A model generated the notes under the pieces. The model did no database searches, had not been told where the DNA came from, and saw only the letters and a list, made by a program, of their open reading frames with translations. A DNA stretch of 64,000 bases, taken from Paracoccaceae bacterium. GTDB taxonomy: Bacteria; Pseudomonadota; Alphaproteobacteria; Rhodobacterales; Rhodobacteraceae. Made by a program: the position numbers and the translations under genes. The stretch lies in contig JANQRE010000015.1 in NCBI GenBank assembly GCA_028284705.1, positions 1-64,000 of the forward strand. Direction: 5' to 3'. Of this stretch, positions 49,269 through 56,196 are shown piece after piece (position 1 is the stretch's first letter; every line of letters starts with the position of its first letter).

Positions 49269-50477
49269 CTAATCAGCCAGTATGGTCTTGATTTCAGACG
49301 AGCTTTCCAGCGTCTTGTGCACCGGGCATTTGTCGGCAATTTCGAGCAGTCGCGCGCGCTGCTCCTCCGTCAGGTCGCCTTCAAGGTGGATTTTCCGTTC
49401 GAAGGTATCGATCTTGGAATGTCCACCATCTGCATCCTGTGCGTGCATCGCATCATGCTTGATATCCACCGTGACCTTCGTCAGCGGCCATTTCTTGCGC
49501 CGCGCATACATGCGGATTGTCATGGACGTGCAGGCCCCCAGACCGGCGGAGAGAAAGCCATAGGGCGTCATGCCTTTGTTCGTGCCGCCATAGGCCAAGG
49601 GCTCGTCCGCATAGGCGTGATGCTCTCGGGTATTCACATCCTGCAAGAAGCCTTCCGGGTCTGCTTCCGCGACACGAACAATACCTTCGGGTGCGCCAAT
49701 AGGAGGGGCAGGTGGGCGCAGATCGATATATTTCGTGGCCCAGGCGGAAATGACATCCGCCGCATATTCCGCATCGGCGGGCCGAGTGATCAGGTGATCG
49801 GCATCGCACAGCGTGATGAAGCTTTTGGGATGTTTGGCATGCAGGAAAATCTGCGTGGCATTCTCGATGCCGACAATGTCGTCGAGAGGCGCATGCAGCA
49901 CCAGCAGCGCGCGTTTGAGGTTCGAGATCGACGGGCCCAGTTTTTCGGCGGAGACGTTCTCGACGAAATCCCGACCAATCCGAATGGGCCGCCCACCCAA
50001 CTGCACTTCACAGACGCCTTGCGCCTTGATGTCGTCAAGCGCGTCGGCAAAGTTATGCGTCACGTGGTCGGGATCGAAGGGCGCACCAATAGTCGTGACT
50101 GCTTTGACTGACGGCAGTTGTTCGGCGGCGCGCAGAACTGCTGCGCCACCCAGAGAGTGACCGATTAGAAGGTCCGGCGCCATGCCACGTTTTGTCAGCT
50201 CTTCCGAGGCGAGGACCAGATCGCGCACATTGGACGAGAAGGTGGTGTTCTCAAACTCACCCTCAGAGTGCCCCAGCCCGGTGAAATCAAACCGCAGGAC
50301 CGCAAACCCCATGGCGGTCAGTCGCTGCGAGATACGCTTCGCGGCGGGGATATCCTTTGAGCAGGTAAAGCAATGCGCAAAGAGAGCGGTTGCCAGCACC
50401 GGCCCATCCGGGAGATCGAGGCGGCCAGCCAAAGGATCACCGGAATGACCGGTGAATGTCAGTTTTTCCATGCTCAT
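49269..50477 (-). CDS. Alpha/beta hydrolase-OsmC fusion protein
   Basis: 402 aa from the ATG at 50477 (a second ATG two codons on). The N-terminal ~250 residues are an alpha/beta hydrolase with the nucleophile elbow GHSLGG and the late His in DADHLI. The C-terminal ~140 are an OsmC/Ohr domain with the peroxidatic Cys of LGACTSMTIRMYA and a second in DKCPVHKTLES. OsmC proteins reduce organic hydroperoxides; the fusion suggests release and reduction of lipid peroxides, but this is inference. Fused forms are known in proteobacteria. Confidence 0.9.
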   Translation of the reverse strand: MSMEKLTFTGHSGDPLAGRLDLPDGPVLATALFAHCFTCSKDIPAAKRISQRLTAMGFAVLRFDFTGLGHSEGEFENTTFSSNVRDLVLASEELTKRGMAPDLLIGHSLGGAAVLRAAEQLPSVKAVTTIGAPFDPDHVTHNFADALDDIKAQGVCEVQLGGRPIRIGRDFVENVSAEKLGPSISNLKRALLVLHAPLDDIVGIENATQIFLHAKHPKSFITLCDADHLITRPADAEYAADVISAWATKYIDLRPPAPPIGAPEGIVRVAEADPEGFLQDVNTREHHAYADEPLAYGGTNKGMTPYGFLSAGLGACTSMTIRMYARRKKWPLTKVTVDIKHDAMHAQDADGGHSKIDTFERKIHLEGDLTEEQRARLLEIADKCPVHKTLESSSEIKTILAD

Positions 50478-50595: not shown

Positions 50596-51489
50596 GTGAA
50601 AGGAAAGGTGCGAGGCGTTGTCTTATTGGCCGCTTTTTTCGTGACGGTGGCCTCCTTTCTGGGTTTTCTGCACCCGGCGGGGGACAGTTTCGCCGTTTTC
50701 CGCAGGCCGATTGCAGCTTTTCTATTGCTTGCTGCTCTGTTTGCGTCAGGACGAACGCAAGGTCTCGCCGTCATTTTTGCTGCGGTCAGCATGTCGAGCA
50801 CCGTTGCGTGGCGGCAAGACGGTCCGGAGGAGATGACTATCTATGTTCGCAACCTTCTGGCCGACAACACCCAGATCGAGAGAATCGCAGCAGAGATTGA
50901 AGCGAGGTCGCCCGAAATTGTTGCTTTGCAAGAGGTGTCCAAACACAACCGTGCATTGCTAAAGCGTCTTGCCGGCACCTATCCACACCAACATTTCTGC
51001 CATTTCTCCGACTGGTCCGGTATGGCGATTTTGAGCAAAACGGCAGCGACCGAACAGGGACGCTGCTCGGCTACACGTGGTCTAGCCGCCATGCCTATCA
51101 AACACGCCAACAAGACGCTTTGGGCGGTTTCAGTCCACCTCCATTTGCCATGGCCTTTGCAGGATGGTGGACCACTTGATGATTTCGTTTCTTTTCTTGG
51201 TGACTTGGATGGGCCAAGAGTGTTGGCGGGCGACTTCAACATGGTGCATTGGGGATATGCCCCGCGAAAGCTGGCGCGTTCAGTCGGGGTCACGCGAGCG
51301 ACTGGATCCGGGCCGACTTTTCGTGTTGCGCGCCATATTTGGGTCGCGATTGATCACGTTTACGCCCCCGGCGGGGGGCGAGCAGAGCGTTTGCCCAAGT
51401 TTGGATCGGACCATCATGGGCTTCTCGCTCGCGTGTCGCTGTCAACTAGTGAAGTCGCCCATAAAATCCCATCCGCTCCTCATCGGTGA
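50596..51489 (+). CDS. Endonuclease/exonuclease/phosphatase-family membrane protein
   Basis: 297 aa; GTG start with GAAGG just upstream. Two or three N-terminal hydrophobic segments (about 8-25, 37-50, 55-70) precede an EEP domain: VRNLLADN, IVALQEVS (catalytic Glu), VSVHLHLPWP, LAGDFNMVHW (Asp-x-Asn) and SDHHGL (Asp-His). The set matches membrane-anchored EEP proteins of unknown substrate. Its last 44 nt overlap the convergent oxygenase gene, which is unusual; a true stop further upstream was not found. Confidence 0.78.
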   Translation: MKGKVRGVVLLAAFFVTVASFLGFLHPAGDSFAVFRRPIAAFLLLAALFASGRTQGLAVIFAAVSMSSTVAWRQDGPEEMTIYVRNLLADNTQIERIAAEIEARSPEIVALQEVSKHNRALLKRLAGTYPHQHFCHFSDWSGMAILSKTAATEQGRCSATRGLAAMPIKHANKTLWAVSVHLHLPWPLQDGGPLDDFVSFLGDLDGPRVLAGDFNMVHWGYAPRKLARSVGVTRATGSGPTFRVARHIWVAIDHVYAPGGGRAERLPKFGSDHHGLLARVSLSTSEVAHKIPSAPHR

Positions 51490-52234
51490 ACCACGCGCCG
51501 GGGTAATCATAGTAGGTCATGACGGTGATGATGCGTCGTTTCGGGCCTTTGGGTGGGGTCACGCGATGGGCGGTATTCACGCCCTTGAAAACGTTCAGCG
51601 TGCCAGGTTCGACATCGAGCAATTGCACCTGATCGTCTTCGCCCGTCAGAAGCTTCGCCACGCCGTCGTAATTGGGATCGTCGGCGGATCGCAGGTCGGA
51701 CCGGTACTCAAAACCACCGCCGATCTCCGGCTTTTGTAAGAGCAGCGTTACGGTGAATTGTGAGCGGTCAAAATGCCAGTTCAGCGCTTCACCTTCGTGA
51801 TAGGCCATCACGTTGAACGCTGCGAGCTGATCGGCCATGGGATAAAGCGGACCGGTCTCCATGACATCGGCTAGAAAGCGCGGCAGGGCGGGGTCGTAGT
51901 AAAGTTGCGCGACAGGCGTGTCTTGCAAAAGATCGCCGCAGAGCGTGTGGTTCGTCGTGTTGAGTTCGCGTAGGGCAGGGTGATCGGGGTCGAGGCCCGG
52001 GATTTCCTTTTTGAAGTAGATGTTGTGGGCGCGCTGATGGGTGAAGCTTTTCTCTGCCCAAAGAGGTTCAGCGGCGGCCAGCGTTTCGGCGATCGCTTCA
52101 GATTTCAGAAATCCATGCAGGTTGAACATGCCCGTCGCGTTCATCTCGTTCCGGCACCGGGCCACAAGCGCTTCACGCTCCGGCCCATCTCGATGGATTG
52201 GGAAGAGATGCGTTTCTATCAGGTCTTCAATCAT
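51446..52234 (-). CDS. BesD/HalD-like Fe(II)/2-oxoglutarate oxygenase
   Basis: 262 aa from the ATG at 52234, overlapping the cupin stop as ATGA. The jelly-roll core reads FNVMAYHEGEALNWHFDRSQF and VEPGTLNVFKGVNTAHRV. The iron triad is H154, D156 and H223, with an Arg near 233 for 2-oxoglutarate. This fold group includes the free-amino-acid radical halogenases BesD/HalB-E. Those have Gly in place of the Asp so chloride can bind; here Asp is kept, so hydroxylation, not halogenation, is predicted. It is third in the dddP operon. Confidence 0.8.
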   Translation of the reverse strand: MIEDLIETHLFPIHRDGPEREALVARCRNEMNATGMFNLHGFLKSEAIAETLAAAEPLWAEKSFTHQRAHNIYFKKEIPGLDPDHPALRELNTTNHTLCGDLLQDTPVAQLYYDPALPRFLADVMETGPLYPMADQLAAFNVMAYHEGEALNWHFDRSQFTVTLLLQKPEIGGGFEYRSDLRSADDPNYDGVAKLLTGEDDQVQLLDVEPGTLNVFKGVNTAHRVTPPKGPKRRIITVMTYYDYPGAWFTDEERMGFYGRLH

Positions 52235-52815
52235 AACTCTGTCTTGGCTGTGTAGTGGTAGCTGTCGGTCGAGACATCGCCGCGCCAGACATAGATCGAC
52301 ATGAAGGCCTGGTCGGTCGATTTTGTACCATGCGGCGTGAAAGAGGGATGATGCGCGCGCGCACCGGGGCCAAGTGCGTTGAAGGCACCGTCCCCGGACT
52401 TCCAATGTCCGACACCTGCCAACATTACAAAGACCTCCTCCGCCGCATGAGTGCGGATGCCATATTCGACGCCGGGCAGGAACCCGTAAAGCCCGATGCG
52501 GAATTGTTCAGACGGCAGAAACCCGTCCGGGCCGATCAGTTCCACATGCAGCTTGTGAATGCTATGGGCGATATAGGTGGGGTCGTCCGAGGTCTGTGGC
52601 GGGGCCCAGGGCAGGGGCGTTGCCGCGATGTCTCGACAGACCGGGTGGGCATCTGGGTCCTGCAGCACATCCAGCATTGCATTCGGCAAGGGTGCGGTGT
52701 CGCGGGCGAGGTCTGGCAGATCGGACGACATCAGCGCTGCCCTGGCCGTCTTTTCGATCTCTAAGTCTCCGTCGAGAGCTTCGGCAAGTCCCAAGGAGAG
52801 CCTTGCGAGCGTCAT
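52231..52815 (-). CDS. DddQ/DddL-like cupin with altered active site
   Basis: 194 aa, the length of DddQ. The region 104-180 follows DMSP-lyase cupins: a Tyr (Y118), then R121-T-H123-A-A-E-E127-V-F129, then H162 in SFTPHGT, and W177 in VWRG. The family motif is HxH-x3-ExY...H. So the first His is Arg and the catalytic Tyr is Phe, while H123, E127 and H162 are intact. It starts four nt after the dddP stop. A lyase with changed chemistry, a related activity, or a non-catalytic relative are all possible. Confidence 0.72.
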   Translation of the reverse strand: MTLARLSLGLAEALDGDLEIEKTARAALMSSDLPDLARDTAPLPNAMLDVLQDPDAHPVCRDIAATPLPWAPPQTSDDPTYIAHSIHKLHVELIGPDGFLPSEQFRIGLYGFLPGVEYGIRTHAAEEVFVMLAGVGHWKSGDGAFNALGPGARAHHPSFTPHGTKSTDQAFMSIYVWRGDVSTDSYHYTAKTEL

Positions 52816-52819
52816 CCGG

Positions 52820-54163
52820 TCAGGCCTCGCCCATCAGGGCCGGGTCGAACGGGTATTTTGTCAGGTTTTCATACCCATTCTCAGTGATCAGCACTTGGTC
52901 TTCGAGCTTGATCGAGAAATCGCCACCCACTTCGCCCGCCAGAACCTCCACGCAAAGCGTCATGCCCGGCTCCAGCGCGTAGTCAAACGCGCCCGGCACC
53001 GCCTTGTCGGGGTAGGCCACCAGCGGCCATTCATCACACAAGCCCACCCCATGCATCAGGCAGCCATATTTCTGCGCCTGAAACTTGTCGTGCAGTTTAT
53101 GACAATTCGCGGTCAGTTCCGGGATCGTCACGCCGGGCCTCAGCATCTCCATATTGGTCATGATGTGTTCGACCGAGTGCTTCATGGCGTCGATCATGTC
53201 CTGTCGGGGTTTTTGGTCGCCGACCCACCATGTCCGCGAGATATCGCAGCAGATGCCGTAAGCGCCGACCAGATCGGTATCGAAGGCGATGATCTCGTTG
53301 TTCTGGGTCACCCGAGGGCCGCATTCCTGAAACCATGGGTTGGTGCGTTGGCCGGAGGCAAGAAGCCGCGTCTCGATCCATTCACCGCCGCGCTTGATGT
53401 TTTCGGCATGTAGAACCGCCCAGATGTCATCCTCGGTCACGCCACCCTTTGGCACTTCCGTGCGGGCAAACTCCTCCATCGGATAGATCGCCATCTCGCA
53501 AGCATGGCAGGCGGCGCGCATGGCGAGTATCTCATCCGGGCCTTTCACGGACCGTGACTTTTCCGTGCATTCCTCGCCCTCCATGATCTCGAAGCCCTGC
53601 GCTTCCAGCGCGCGCAGCCCATGCAGCATGATCTTGTCGACACCGAGCCGTTTGTTGCCGCTGCCATGGTCCTCGATCAGCACCCGCACTTCGTTGGCAA
53701 AGACATCTGCCGCCACATCCGTTTTGTCGCCGCGGTCGAAATAGAAGAGGTCCGCGCCGGAGCGCTGTTCCCGCACCAGGGGGTTGAATTTGCTTAAGAA
53801 AGGCGAGTTCTTGTAGTCCCACATCACCATATAGCCATCGGCACAAAGCAGAAGCGCGCGGAACGGATTATGCGTGTTCCAAAGCTGCATATTGGTGGAA
53901 TCCGAGGCGTAGCGGATGTTCAACGGATCGAAGACCAAGAGCCCGCCCCAATCGCGATCAACAATATGCTGCGTCAGACGTTTCCAGCGGTATTCGCGCA
54001 TCTTGGCAAGGTTGGGCAGTTCCAGCCCTGCCGCCGCCCATTCATCGAAGGCCAGTTGTGGGGGGCCGATTTCAATGCGGTCATTGTCGTTTGGTGTACC
54101 GTCACCCAGTGTTGCTCCCTTTGAGGGATCGATTTTCCGACCGTCGCGATAATGCTGGTTCAT
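52820..54163 (-). CDS. dddP: DMSP lyase DddP
   Basis: 447 aa, full length. M24 (creatinase/aminopeptidase P) fold. It cleaves dimethylsulfoniopropionate to DMS and acrylate. The N-terminus NQHYRDGRKIDPSKGATLG is typical of roseobacter DddP. The binuclear metal ligands known for DddP fall at exactly the expected positions: D295, D297, D307, H371, E406 and E421. It is first of a minus-strand operon with the cupin and oxygenase genes, and divergent from the DUF3445 gene (96 bp between starts). Confidence 0.95.
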   Translation of the reverse strand: MNQHYRDGRKIDPSKGATLGDGTPNDNDRIEIGPPQLAFDEWAAAGLELPNLAKMREYRWKRLTQHIVDRDWGGLLVFDPLNIRYASDSTNMQLWNTHNPFRALLLCADGYMVMWDYKNSPFLSKFNPLVREQRSGADLFYFDRGDKTDVAADVFANEVRVLIEDHGSGNKRLGVDKIMLHGLRALEAQGFEIMEGEECTEKSRSVKGPDEILAMRAACHACEMAIYPMEEFARTEVPKGGVTEDDIWAVLHAENIKRGGEWIETRLLASGQRTNPWFQECGPRVTQNNEIIAFDTDLVGAYGICCDISRTWWVGDQKPRQDMIDAMKHSVEHIMTNMEMLRPGVTIPELTANCHKLHDKFQAQKYGCLMHGVGLCDEWPLVAYPDKAVPGAFDYALEPGMTLCVEVLAGEVGGDFSIKLEDQVLITENGYENLTKYPFDPALMGEA

Positions 54164-54217
54164 CGCTTGTCTCCCCGTGGTCTTTTGTCCAAGGATGAGC
54201 GGGGCAAAAGGCTCGAT

Positions 54218-54234
54218 GCCGTTCTGAAAACGGC
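54218..54234. promoter_or_regulatory. Short dyad in the dddP / DUF3445 divergent promoter region
   Basis: GCCGTT (54218-54223), five bases, AACGGC (54229-54234), lying between the divergent starts at 54163 and 54260. It may be an operator; six-bp arms can arise by chance. Confidence 0.3.
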
Positions 54235-54259
54235 CAATTCACGCCGCTTTTGGAGCGAA

Positions 54260-55006
54260 ATGCACGAAATCTGTCAGAAACGCTTGAGATTTGCGCCCTG
54301 GCTGGAGGAAAAATCCCGCCGGTTGCCCGGGGTTATGCCGCTTGAGATGGCAGATTGGCTGCAGGTGGATGAGGCTTTCGACGCGCAGATCGCGGAGAAG
54401 GCGCGGCTTCTTCGCGCTTGCCGCGAAGAGGTTCTGCAGACCTCACCACAAGCGCAAGCCTCTGCTGAAGAACTCCTTGCGCTGGCCACCAAACACAGCG
54501 AGGCGGTCCCGCACGGGAGCGATGAGCCGCTCGCAAAGCTCGCAACCTTCACGCAAGAGGATTTCTGCATCCTGCAAAAACAAGGGGACGAACATGTCCT
54601 GACCGCCGCGCTCCTCTGTTTTCCGGCCAGTTGGACCCTGGCGGAGAAGTTCCTGCGGCCTTTGACAGTAATCCACGACCCCGTCGCGCCCTACACCGAT
54701 GATATCGCCAAACGCGTGCAACGGCTTTTCGATGCGGTGCGCCCGGATCGCCCGCTCTGGCGCGCCAATGCGTTGCGCTATTCCGACCCGACACTCTTTC
54801 AACCGCGGCGCTATGGCGAGAACCGCGATCATCCGGAGGAGGGCGGCTATATCCGCTCCGAACGCCAATCGATCCTGCGCCTGCCGGAAACCGATGCGGT
54901 GGTCTTCTCGATCCACACCACCGTGATCCCCGAAAGCGCCTTGACGCCTGAGCAAGCGGCTGGTTTGCAGAAGCACCCGATCATCCATGCCAGCGAGGAT
55001 GCATGA
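54260..55006 (+). CDS. DUF3445 / heme-dependent oxidative N-demethylase-like protein
   Basis: 248 aa from the ATG at 54260, with GGAG four nt upstream; in-frame codons before it would overlap the dddP start. The sequence RLPGVMPLEMADWLQVDEAFDAQ and the later CFPASWTLAEKF...IHDPVAPY...LWRANALRY with RSERQSILRLPET are typical of DUF3445, whose studied members are heme-dependent amine N-demethylases (dimethylamine monooxygenase type). The other subunits are absent here, so the substrate is open. The methyltransferase gene follows with an ATGA overlap. Confidence 0.8.
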   Translation: MHEICQKRLRFAPWLEEKSRRLPGVMPLEMADWLQVDEAFDAQIAEKARLLRACREEVLQTSPQAQASAEELLALATKHSEAVPHGSDEPLAKLATFTQEDFCILQKQGDEHVLTAALLCFPASWTLAEKFLRPLTVIHDPVAPYTDDIAKRVQRLFDAVRPDRPLWRANALRYSDPTLFQPRRYGENRDHPEEGGYIRSERQSILRLPETDAVVFSIHTTVIPESALTPEQAAGLQKHPIIHASEDA

Positions 55007-56196
55007 GCGACCAAGTGAAGTCTCAGTATGAGGCCTTTCCCTATCCCGAGCGTGACCCCAAGGATGAGAAGAAGCGCCTGATCACAGGTTCGCCCTCGCA
55101 CCCGCTGGAGATGGATCATTTCCTCTGGGCCGGGCAGCGGGATTGGTCCGCGCCGATCAAAATCTTGGTGGCTGGGGGCGGTACTGGCGATGCGCTTATT
55201 CAACTTGCACAAACGCTCACAAACGCCCGAAAAAAATACGAAATCACCTATATCGACCTCTCCACGGCGTCGCGCGCCATCGCGGAAAAACGCGCCAAGG
55301 CGCGCAATTTGAAACGTATTGAGTTTGTCACCGGCTCGCTCCTTGATGCACCGGAGATGGGGGAATTTGACTACATCGACTGCTGTGGGGTCCTTCACCA
55401 TCTGCCTGAGCCGCAAGAGGGGTTCAACGCGCTCTCGCAGGCCCTGAAACCTGATGGCGGCATCGGCCTCATGGTCTACGCGCCTTACGGGCGGTCAGGT
55501 GTGTACCCGCTGCAGGAGGCGTTCAACGCACTTTACAGCGATCTCAGTCCGGAGGACCGCCTGAAGGCCGCAAGCCAGGTCTTCAACCGCCTCCCGCCAA
55601 CCCACCAGTTCAAGACGAACCCCCATGTTGGCGACCACAAGACGGGCCCTGCCGGGTTCTATGATTTGCTCCTGCATTCGACGGACCAACCTTTTACAAT
55701 CAAAGCACTACGCGCCACTCTTGAAGTGGCAGGCCTTCAGATGACCGGCACTCCACACGCGCTGCAATATGATCTCTCGCGGTTTCTGGGTCAGGTGCCT
55801 AGGGAGCTGGACGAAGCAGAACAGATGGCAATTGCCGAGAAGCTCGACGGCACCATCAAACACCATGTCATCTATGCACGTCGCAAGGACGGGTCTGCGC
55901 CCGGTCGGGCCAGCGGCACGGATACTGATATCCCGCATCTGCGCGGCATCAAACCCGGGGTTCTGGCGCAAAACGTGGCCCAAAAGCAGGAAATCTCGAT
56001 CACGCTTTTCGGCACACCGTTCAAAATCCCGGTGCCGAAGGAAGCAGCACCGATTATCGCCGCGATTGACGGTCGCACTGATATCGCAACCCTGCGACGA
56101 ACGACGGATCCAATCCTATGGCCCAAGCTCTGGCCGGGATTGGAGCAGGAATTGCTACGGTTTGGACTGATGGTATACTCGCACCTTTTGCGATGA
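55003..56196 (+). CDS. Class I SAM-dependent methyltransferase with C-terminal extension
   Basis: 397 aa; ATGA overlap with the DUF3445 gene, so coupled. The N-terminal ~180 residues are a methyltransferase: VAGGGTGDALIQLA (motif I), YIDLS (acidic end of beta 2), and DYIDCCGVLHHLPEPQEGF. The remaining ~200 residues hold a second, unrecognised domain ending RFGLMVYSHLLR, perhaps winged-helix-like. The N-terminus YEAFPYPERDP is typical of this conserved architecture. The substrate is unknown. Confidence 0.83.
   Translation: MSDQVKSQYEAFPYPERDPKDEKKRLITGSPSHPLEMDHFLWAGQRDWSAPIKILVAGGGTGDALIQLAQTLTNARKKYEITYIDLSTASRAIAEKRAKARNLKRIEFVTGSLLDAPEMGEFDYIDCCGVLHHLPEPQEGFNALSQALKPDGGIGLMVYAPYGRSGVYPLQEAFNALYSDLSPEDRLKAASQVFNRLPPTHQFKTNPHVGDHKTGPAGFYDLLLHSTDQPFTIKALRATLEVAGLQMTGTPHALQYDLSRFLGQVPRELDEAEQMAIAEKLDGTIKHHVIYARRKDGSAPGRASGTDTDIPHLRGIKPGVLAQNVAQKQEISITLFGTPFKIPVPKEAAPIIAAIDGRTDIATLRRTTDPILWPKLWPGLEQELLRFGLMVYSHLLR

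Follow-up and report, generated by a model that had tools for sequence, protein, structure and literature searches.

The closest described counterparts of the locus analyzed here are the DddP loci of roseobacters, which carry DddP, a true lyase for the algal sulfur compound dimethylsulfoniopropionate (DMSP), together with conserved flanking genes for an alpha/beta hydrolase-OsmC fusion (OsmC-hydrolase), a HODM_asu-like protein, a methyltransferase and uvrA. A 64,000-nucleotide stretch of DNA from a marine Paracoccaceae bacterium (contig JANQRE010000015.1; hereafter the window) shares the DddP and these flanks, but differs in that genes for a cupin and for an Fe(II)/2-oxoglutarate (2OG) oxygenase are inserted directly after dddP. 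According to Pfam, the cupin shares PF16867 membership with the DMSP-lyase cupins DddQ, DddK, DddW and DddL, but Arg replaces their first metal-binding His and Phe their catalytic Tyr. The oxygenase has the fold of the halogenases BesD, HalB and HalD and of the BesD hydroxylase homologue 7jsd (Foldseek E-values of about 1e-12 to 1e-13), from which it differs in identity (13-19% in the fold matches), in its H-x-D motif and in betaine-type gene neighbours. Relatives of betaine catabolism genes (MttB; the Rieske proteins CntA, GbcA and Stc2; HpbD; the names Stc2 and HpbD are our assumption) recur beside the oxygenase family elsewhere, but none of them adjoins the window oxygenase. In TauD and some other 2OG enzymes, cleavage follows from hydroxylation beside a leaving group; the chemistry proposed below is shared with TauD-type enzymes, which presumably form a different 2OG subfamily, and this likeness is drawn from chemistry, not sequence. 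On the evidence that follows, we read the oxygenase as a putative hydroxylase whose substrate would be a methylated onium betaine and whose place in the dddP operon would let it act on DMSP or on a compound taken up or used with it; we give this reading a probability of about 0.5.

The unit is arranged as follows.
52820-54163, minus strand: dddP, DMSP lyase DddP, 447 amino acids, M24 fold (NF043017, 4rzy alignment, residue check)
52816-52819, minus strand: 4-nucleotide gap between dddP and the cupin gene
52231-52815, minus strand: PF16867 (DMSP_lyase family) cupin, 194 amino acids (Pfam, 5cu1 alignment, 20 relatives aligned)
52231-52234, minus strand: 4-nucleotide overlap (ATGA) of the cupin and oxygenase genes
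51446-52234, minus strand: Fe(II)/2OG oxygenase with the BesD/HalD fold, 262 amino acids (PF23169, alignments, model and fold search)

A check of the open reading frames (ORFs) confirmed the first-pass annotation, which had placed three ORFs here on the minus strand with a 4-nucleotide gap and a 4-nucleotide overlap; the frames are intact. The cupin stop codon (52231-52233) overlaps the oxygenase ATG (52232-52234), and this start at position 52234 agrees with the relatives, a longer ORF from a TTG being disfavoured. The gene unit is real and tight, and its three-gene form is private to the window genome in the sets searched. The junctions support a single operon-like unit, and from them co-transcription of dddP, the cupin gene and the oxygenase gene is predicted.

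By its sequence, the lyase of the window is a genuine DddP. It scored 897.5 bits against NCBIfam NF043017 (cut-off 600) and aligned over its full length with the solved DddP structure 4rzy (E 2.4e-271). A residue check, for which we used what we take to be the six metal-ligand positions, found all six together with Tyr366 and Asp377, confirming the complete DddP that had been annotated. In the available part of PMC4108388, Asp377, or alternatively Tyr366, is proposed as the base of DddP. Release of dimethyl sulfide (DMS) and acrylate from DMSP is predicted. No second gene of the window genome (G000, in which the window lies on contig 39) matched the DddP model at E 0.001, and DddP exceeded the cut-off in 20 of the 21 genomes of the genus.

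Tight dddP-oxygenase junctions were found in three genomes: the window genome, another of the same genus (G006) and one of a different genus (G200). In G006, dddP is followed by the oxygenase gene alone, with a 1-nucleotide overlap (TGATG), and then by OsmC-hydrolase; in G200, the oxygenase gene follows dddP after a 1-nucleotide gap (TGA-G-ATG) in the same OsmC/HODM setting, and the one searched congener of G200 gave no oxygenase match at E 1e-60. The full dddP-cupin-oxygenase order was found nowhere but in the window among 20 other dddP loci (18 from congeners and 2 from other genera, some of them short), 134 oxygenase loci and 27 loci of an order sample. This sample comprised 390 genomes, 44 of which gave matches (45 in total); 27 new loci, with some repeats, were examined, and no dddP-linked oxygenase appeared apart from those of G200 and the window. 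The first-pass annotation had named confinement of the three-gene order to one genome as grounds for giving its proposal up. This is what we found for the three-gene order, whereas the dddP-oxygenase pair, present in three genomes, withstands the same test. A close oxygenase (E 1e-70) was present in 6 of the 21 genomes of the genus, dddP-linked in 2, and in 46 of 394 genomes of a family survey with nearly one genome per genus, in which DddP was scored for every genome and adjacency to dddP was judged from the fetched oxygenase loci. In the genus, dddP is usually followed directly by OsmC-hydrolase: 16 of 18 congener loci have it within 200 nucleotides. In G008 the two genes are 2.7 kb apart, and G004 gave no OsmC match.

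Comparison of the window with G006 gave a nonsynonymous divergence (dN) of 0.19 and a synonymous divergence (dS) of 1.95, which is near saturation, for the oxygenase; with dS so close to saturation, dN/dS was about 0.1 for both the oxygenase and dddP, which suggests that both are maintained by selection. Because of this purifying selection and the recurrence of the junction in two other genomes, the pairing appears to be more than chance. In the oxygenase tree, the window grouped with G006 (100/100) and G200 with G024 (95/88). Forcing the dddP-linked oxygenases into one clade cost 48.7 log-likelihood units with a p-value of 0.10 in the approximately unbiased (AU) test; on the tree, the dddP link is better explained by two origins, while the AU test does not formally reject a single one.

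The oxygenase scored 46.7 bits against PF23169 HalD (cut-off 26), and its 2OG-FeII_Oxy_3 match falls below that family's own cut-off. Its iron motif is HFD...H (H154-x-D156...H223), and H154, D156, R157 and H223 are invariant in two alignments, A1 and A2, the latter having 25 rows. The AlphaFold2 model built on A2 (predicted local distance difference test, pLDDT, 94.2; predicted template modelling score, pTM, 0.90) had HalD (7u6h, 2.4e-13) and BesD (6nie, 4.4e-13) as its best Foldseek matches, followed by HalB (7u6i, 5.3e-13) and the BesD hydroxylase homologue (7jsd, 1.2e-12); a profile match to HalB had an E-value of 1.7e-7. Alignment and model both place the H-x-D...H triad on a double-stranded beta-helix fold, and the Pfam score, the model and the fold matches support the earlier assignment to the BesD/HalD type. 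Known halogenases of this type have no carboxylate ligand, Gly or Ala replacing the iron-binding Asp. The window oxygenase has their fold but not this replacement, as H154-F-D156 is invariant in A2. Because the iron-binding Asp is present, the enzyme should hydroxylate rather than halogenate.

To describe the gene neighbourhoods of the family, we gathered 134 oxygenase loci (window included), 46-100% identical to the window oxygenase. Six duplicate fetches were dropped and loci cut by contig ends were kept, which gave 128 distinct oxygenases; their neighbouring genes were identified by tblastn searches using marker proteins, in place of crude ORF calls. An M24 gene lay within 2.6 kb in 36 of the 128 loci, DddP-like in 33 and true DddP only in 3. 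In 29 loci the DddP-like gene was the next gene downstream of the oxygenase, in the same orientation, and in 3 a true DddP gene preceded the oxygenase on its strand at a distance of no more than 700 nucleotides. By our own arithmetic, the chance of such adjacency is well under 1% for three such M24 genes in a 4-Mb genome, and none of seven loci of paralogous oxygenases used as a small control (L048-L050, L056-L058 and L061) carried such a gene. A divergent LysR gene lay upstream of the oxygenase in 57 of the 128 loci.

The DddP-like M24 proteins were about 39% identical to DddP, with scores below the DddP cut-off (379 bits in one case). Tyr366 and Asp377 were kept in all 31 readable loci (2 of the 33 do not cover the site), as were the six metal ligands, except for one Asn at position 307. 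In a wider M24 alignment of 27 rows (4 DddP and 23 others), Tyr366 was present in 27 and Asp377 in 23; Gly took the position of Asp377 in four rows, L044 and the M24 proteins of L053, L054 and L060. The latter three loci hold more distant oxygenases (33-34%) that also adjoin M24 genes, and the Gly is a hint that these M24 proteins may be hydrolases instead of lyases. Away from the oxygenase, DddP-like M24 genes adjoined MttB in 3 of 15 loci checked (L177:6462-10610, L179:2984-5778 and L180:6667-9173), directly in each case and together with a LysR gene in two, and these likely represent a betaine module without the oxygenase. Additionally, G024 has two genes that exceed the DddP cut-off, with 643 and 744 bits, and a LysR-oxygenase-DddP-like M24 series within about 10 kb (L040:1247-10743). 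A sister group at about 39% identity that keeps the catalytic Tyr and Asp calls for caution in metagenome counts of dddP, and its position beside MttB and the oxygenase offers a lead on the relationship between DddP and betaine enzymes.

Other neighbours of the oxygenase family are marks of methylated-betaine use and offer hints, not proof, of its substrate. Within 2.6 kb of the 128 oxygenases we found DAO-GcvT (10), Rieske (6), SBP_bac_5 (6), ALDH (6), MR_MLE (5), FA_desaturase-like (4) and MttB (2) genes, and the neighbours included MttB, GbcA/CntA-like Rieske, DAO-GcvT and MR_MLE genes as well as a GntR-DHDPS-ALDH-DAO set. The cluster on Mesorhizobium pWSM1497 contains genes for LysR, an MttB-family protein, an Ldh-family dehydrogenase, the oxygenase, a Rieske protein and an ABC binding protein. 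Among solved structures, the Rieske neighbour in L148 was closest to carnitine monooxygenase and then to 3vca/4qup, of which 3vca is presumably Stc2, the stachydrine demethylase. For the MR_MLE neighbour in Mesorhizobium (L147), the best match was 4mgg, with further matches to 2rdx, 4e8g/4izg and 4h2h, the last-named structures being, we assume, HpbD, hydroxyproline-betaine epimerase; a second MR_MLE neighbour (L161) matched the same structures only weakly. Rhodobacteraceae IMCC1909 has an oxygenase-GntR-DHDPS-ALDH-MttB-DAO operon (L137:7998-14884), and Planktomarina metagenome-assembled genomes (L097, L138) have most of this layout in common. The gene set resembles what we take to be hydroxyproline catabolism, and the layout suggests a hydroxyproline-betaine-like pathway; none of the curated models names these proteins as hydroxyproline catabolism. 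These neighbours (MttB, Rieske, DAO-GcvT and MR_MLE) fit the earlier suggestion that the substrate may be a sulfonium or betaine compound, and we found no support for the accompanying idea that acrylate-linked products are handled. Because six MttB-family genes are present in the window genome (contigs 4, 19, 35, 45, 47 and 48), betaine/methylamine demethylation is probably prominent there. A histidine/ergothioneine link was rejected, as hutU, hutH and hutI beside the oxygenase-M24 pair of L116 are canonical hut genes and probably chance neighbours. In L042, an aromatic-lyase-family gene between the oxygenase and the M24 gene has a frame break.

Taken as a hydroxylase for an onium betaine, the window oxygenase would be an Fe(II)/2OG enzyme whose substrate is a small methylated onium zwitterion, either a quaternary-ammonium betaine or the corresponding sulfonium compound. 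In the window lineage, its gene would have moved into the dddP transcription unit and thereby away from the LysR-controlled setting, often with a DddP-like M24 neighbour, of many relatives. Hydroxylation of a C-H bond next to the onium centre, in the chain or a methyl group, would be the most likely chemistry. The hydroxy-onium product should collapse spontaneously to DMS or an amine plus an aldehyde (malonate semialdehyde in the case of DMSP) or, alternatively, to formaldehyde plus the demethylated product, and an oxidative pathway would run alongside the elimination to acrylate by DddP. We infer a function shared with DddP, in which the oxygenase would work on DMSP or a betaine used alongside it. 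More widely, a BesD-fold hydroxylase family is associated with DddP-type M24 enzymes and betaine genes, and this association is apparently undescribed. The first-pass annotation knew of no described pathway joining DddP to a BesD/HalD-type oxygenase; likewise, the literature searched on dddP with oxygenases and gene neighbourhoods does not describe the pairing among the matches listed, a weak negative since subscription papers lay mostly outside it. Among the matches listed, the literature on betaines with 2OG oxygenases showed no 2OG oxygenase in such a role and that on BesD/HalD no such enzyme; a stachydrine review (PMC11337228) gave no match to the terms looked for in it. A hydroxylase repeatedly coupled to DddP or its DddP-like sister is a cloneable candidate for an undescribed step of DMSP or marine-betaine oxidation.

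Several observations weigh against onium-betaine hydroxylation in the dddP operon. The reading draws on gene context and fold, from which the substrate is deduced, and the neighbours elsewhere favour N-betaines, some of them proline-betaine-like, over sulfonium compounds. The dddP-linked form is known from only three genomes in the searched sets, and the oxygenase frame of G200 contains one in-frame TAG. A scan for promoter and terminator motifs at the locus gave chance-level results. Of the 128 oxygenases, 71 lack a divergent LysR gene and 48 have no label marker within 2.6 kb, although ALDH, SBP_bac_5 and any marker farther away than 2.6 kb do not enter into the latter count, which thus includes loci such as L137. 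Finally, DddP exceeded the cut-off in 45 of the 46 oxygenase-bearing genomes of the family survey versus 172 of the 348 without the oxygenase (p 8e-12). A paralogous oxygenase in the same 394 genomes gave 49 of 52 (p 0.62 for the difference), and co-occurrence was therefore dropped as specific evidence; because the paralogue shows it equally, it reflects lineage or habitat.

The cupin was compared in an alignment with 20 relatives. It scored 39.9 bits against PF16867 DMSP_lyase (cut-off 27) and is weakly similar to 5cu1, 4b29 and 4la2. Where DMSP-lyase cupins have H-x-H-x3-E-x-Y, the window cupin has R121-x-H123-x3-E127-x-F129 (R-T-H-A-A-E-E-V-F versus H-Q-H-P-A-E-E-I-Y in 5cu1). It thus departs from the lyase ligand pattern H-x-H-x3-E...H at the first metal His, which is Arg121, and Phe129 occupies the position of the catalytic Tyr64 of DddK. 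The available part of PMC10686828 gives His56, His58, Glu62 and His96 as the ligands of DddK and Tyr64 as its base. Because the metal His and the catalytic Tyr are replaced, we did not count the cupin as a lyase, and it is probably an accessory or ligand-binding protein. Of the label DddQ-like cupin in the first-pass annotation, the PF16867 relationship stands, but a second DMSP lyase does not follow, as the catalytic Tyr and one metal His are missing. The R...F combination recurs in several relatives of the cupin, among them those in G006, G008, G017 and G056 and a second PF16867 cupin of the window genome (contig 28, L275:6559-7245), and R...Y occurs in those of G047 and G029. Loci related to this second cupin have housekeeping-type neighbours (gatB in L278), and the neighbours of the cupin paralogues (GatB, a peptidase) gave no functional clue.

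The most serious alternative is promoter capture, in which the oxygenase, along with the cupin, occupies an insert-accepting slot after dddP, is driven by the dddP promoter and acts on an unrelated betaine, for example of the proline type, with no link to DMSP. Elsewhere, the dddP/OsmC junction holds other extra DNA, with about 2.7 kb at G008 and roughly 2.1 kb at G051, in line with such a slot; many oxygenase relatives are independent genes with a divergent LysR (57/128), and the neighbours elsewhere resemble proline- or hydroxyproline-betaine catabolism. However, junctions with a 1-nucleotide overlap or gap in two other genomes exceed what random insertion would give, as does the repeated linkage of the family to DddP-like M24 enzymes, and we regard promoter capture as possible but tentative. 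A bolder proposal is doubtful: the oxygenase and a DddP-type M24 enzyme would form an undescribed onium-betaine catabolic module found widely across Alphaproteobacteria and, where a true DddP stands in for the DddP-like partner, the oxygenase would oxidise DMSP itself in a TauD-like manner. Hydroxylation beside the sulfur would then yield DMS and malonate semialdehyde, or formaldehyde and methylmercaptopropionate, and provide an O2/2OG-dependent DMSP route that avoids acrylate.

The remaining alternatives are less probable still. The cupin could be a second working DMSP lyase of the DddQ type, in a locus with two DMSP lyases to which the oxygenase is an accessory, as its PF16867 score and its weak similarity to 5cu1, 4b29 and 4la2 would allow; Arg121, Phe129 and the lack of any cupin match at all 20 other dddP loci, some of which are short, make this very unlikely. 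There is a similarly slim chance that the oxygenase carries out the oxidative decarboxylation of 4-dimethylsulfonio-2-hydroxybutyrate (DMSHB) to DMSP, a step whose enzyme is missing. Such a step would supply the substrate of DddP and, according to the available part of PMC11306096, the enzyme for DMSHB decarboxylation is unidentified in most bacteria with the activity. However, this chemistry would be unusual for a BesD/HalD fold, members of the oxygenase family are found alongside N-betaine genes and also in bacteria from soil and plants, and DsyD, the only known DMSHB decarboxylase domain in the same partial source, is PF04115, for which reason DsyD was also rejected as a homologue of the oxygenase. 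Finally, a halogenase like BesD/HalD would match the shared fold and Pfam family, but with H-x-D in all 25 rows of A2, against the carboxylate-free site of halogenases, its probability is close to nil.

The genes on either side of the unit are as follows.
49269-50477, minus strand: alpha/beta hydrolase-OsmC fusion (Pfam; genus comparison)
54152-55006, plus strand: HODM_asu-like gene, divergent from dddP (PF11927, 152.9 bits)

In the window, the cupin gene, the oxygenase gene and an endonuclease/exonuclease/phosphatase-family (EEP) ORF stand between dddP and OsmC-hydrolase. The EEP ORF (50596-51489, plus strand) is convergent to the oxygenase gene and overlaps its 3' end by 44 nucleotides; G006 has no room for it, with 163 nucleotides between the oxygenase and OsmC-hydrolase matches. 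The true start of the HODM_asu-like gene is probably an ATG inside the ORF, leaving a short divergent promoter region. Together with a methyltransferase gene, this haem N-demethylase alpha-like gene spans 54152-56196 (plus strand), divergent from dddP, and many congeners conserve both next to dddP; HODM is present at 13 of 18 congener dddP loci, and the two genes are possibly another amine/onium link at dddP loci.

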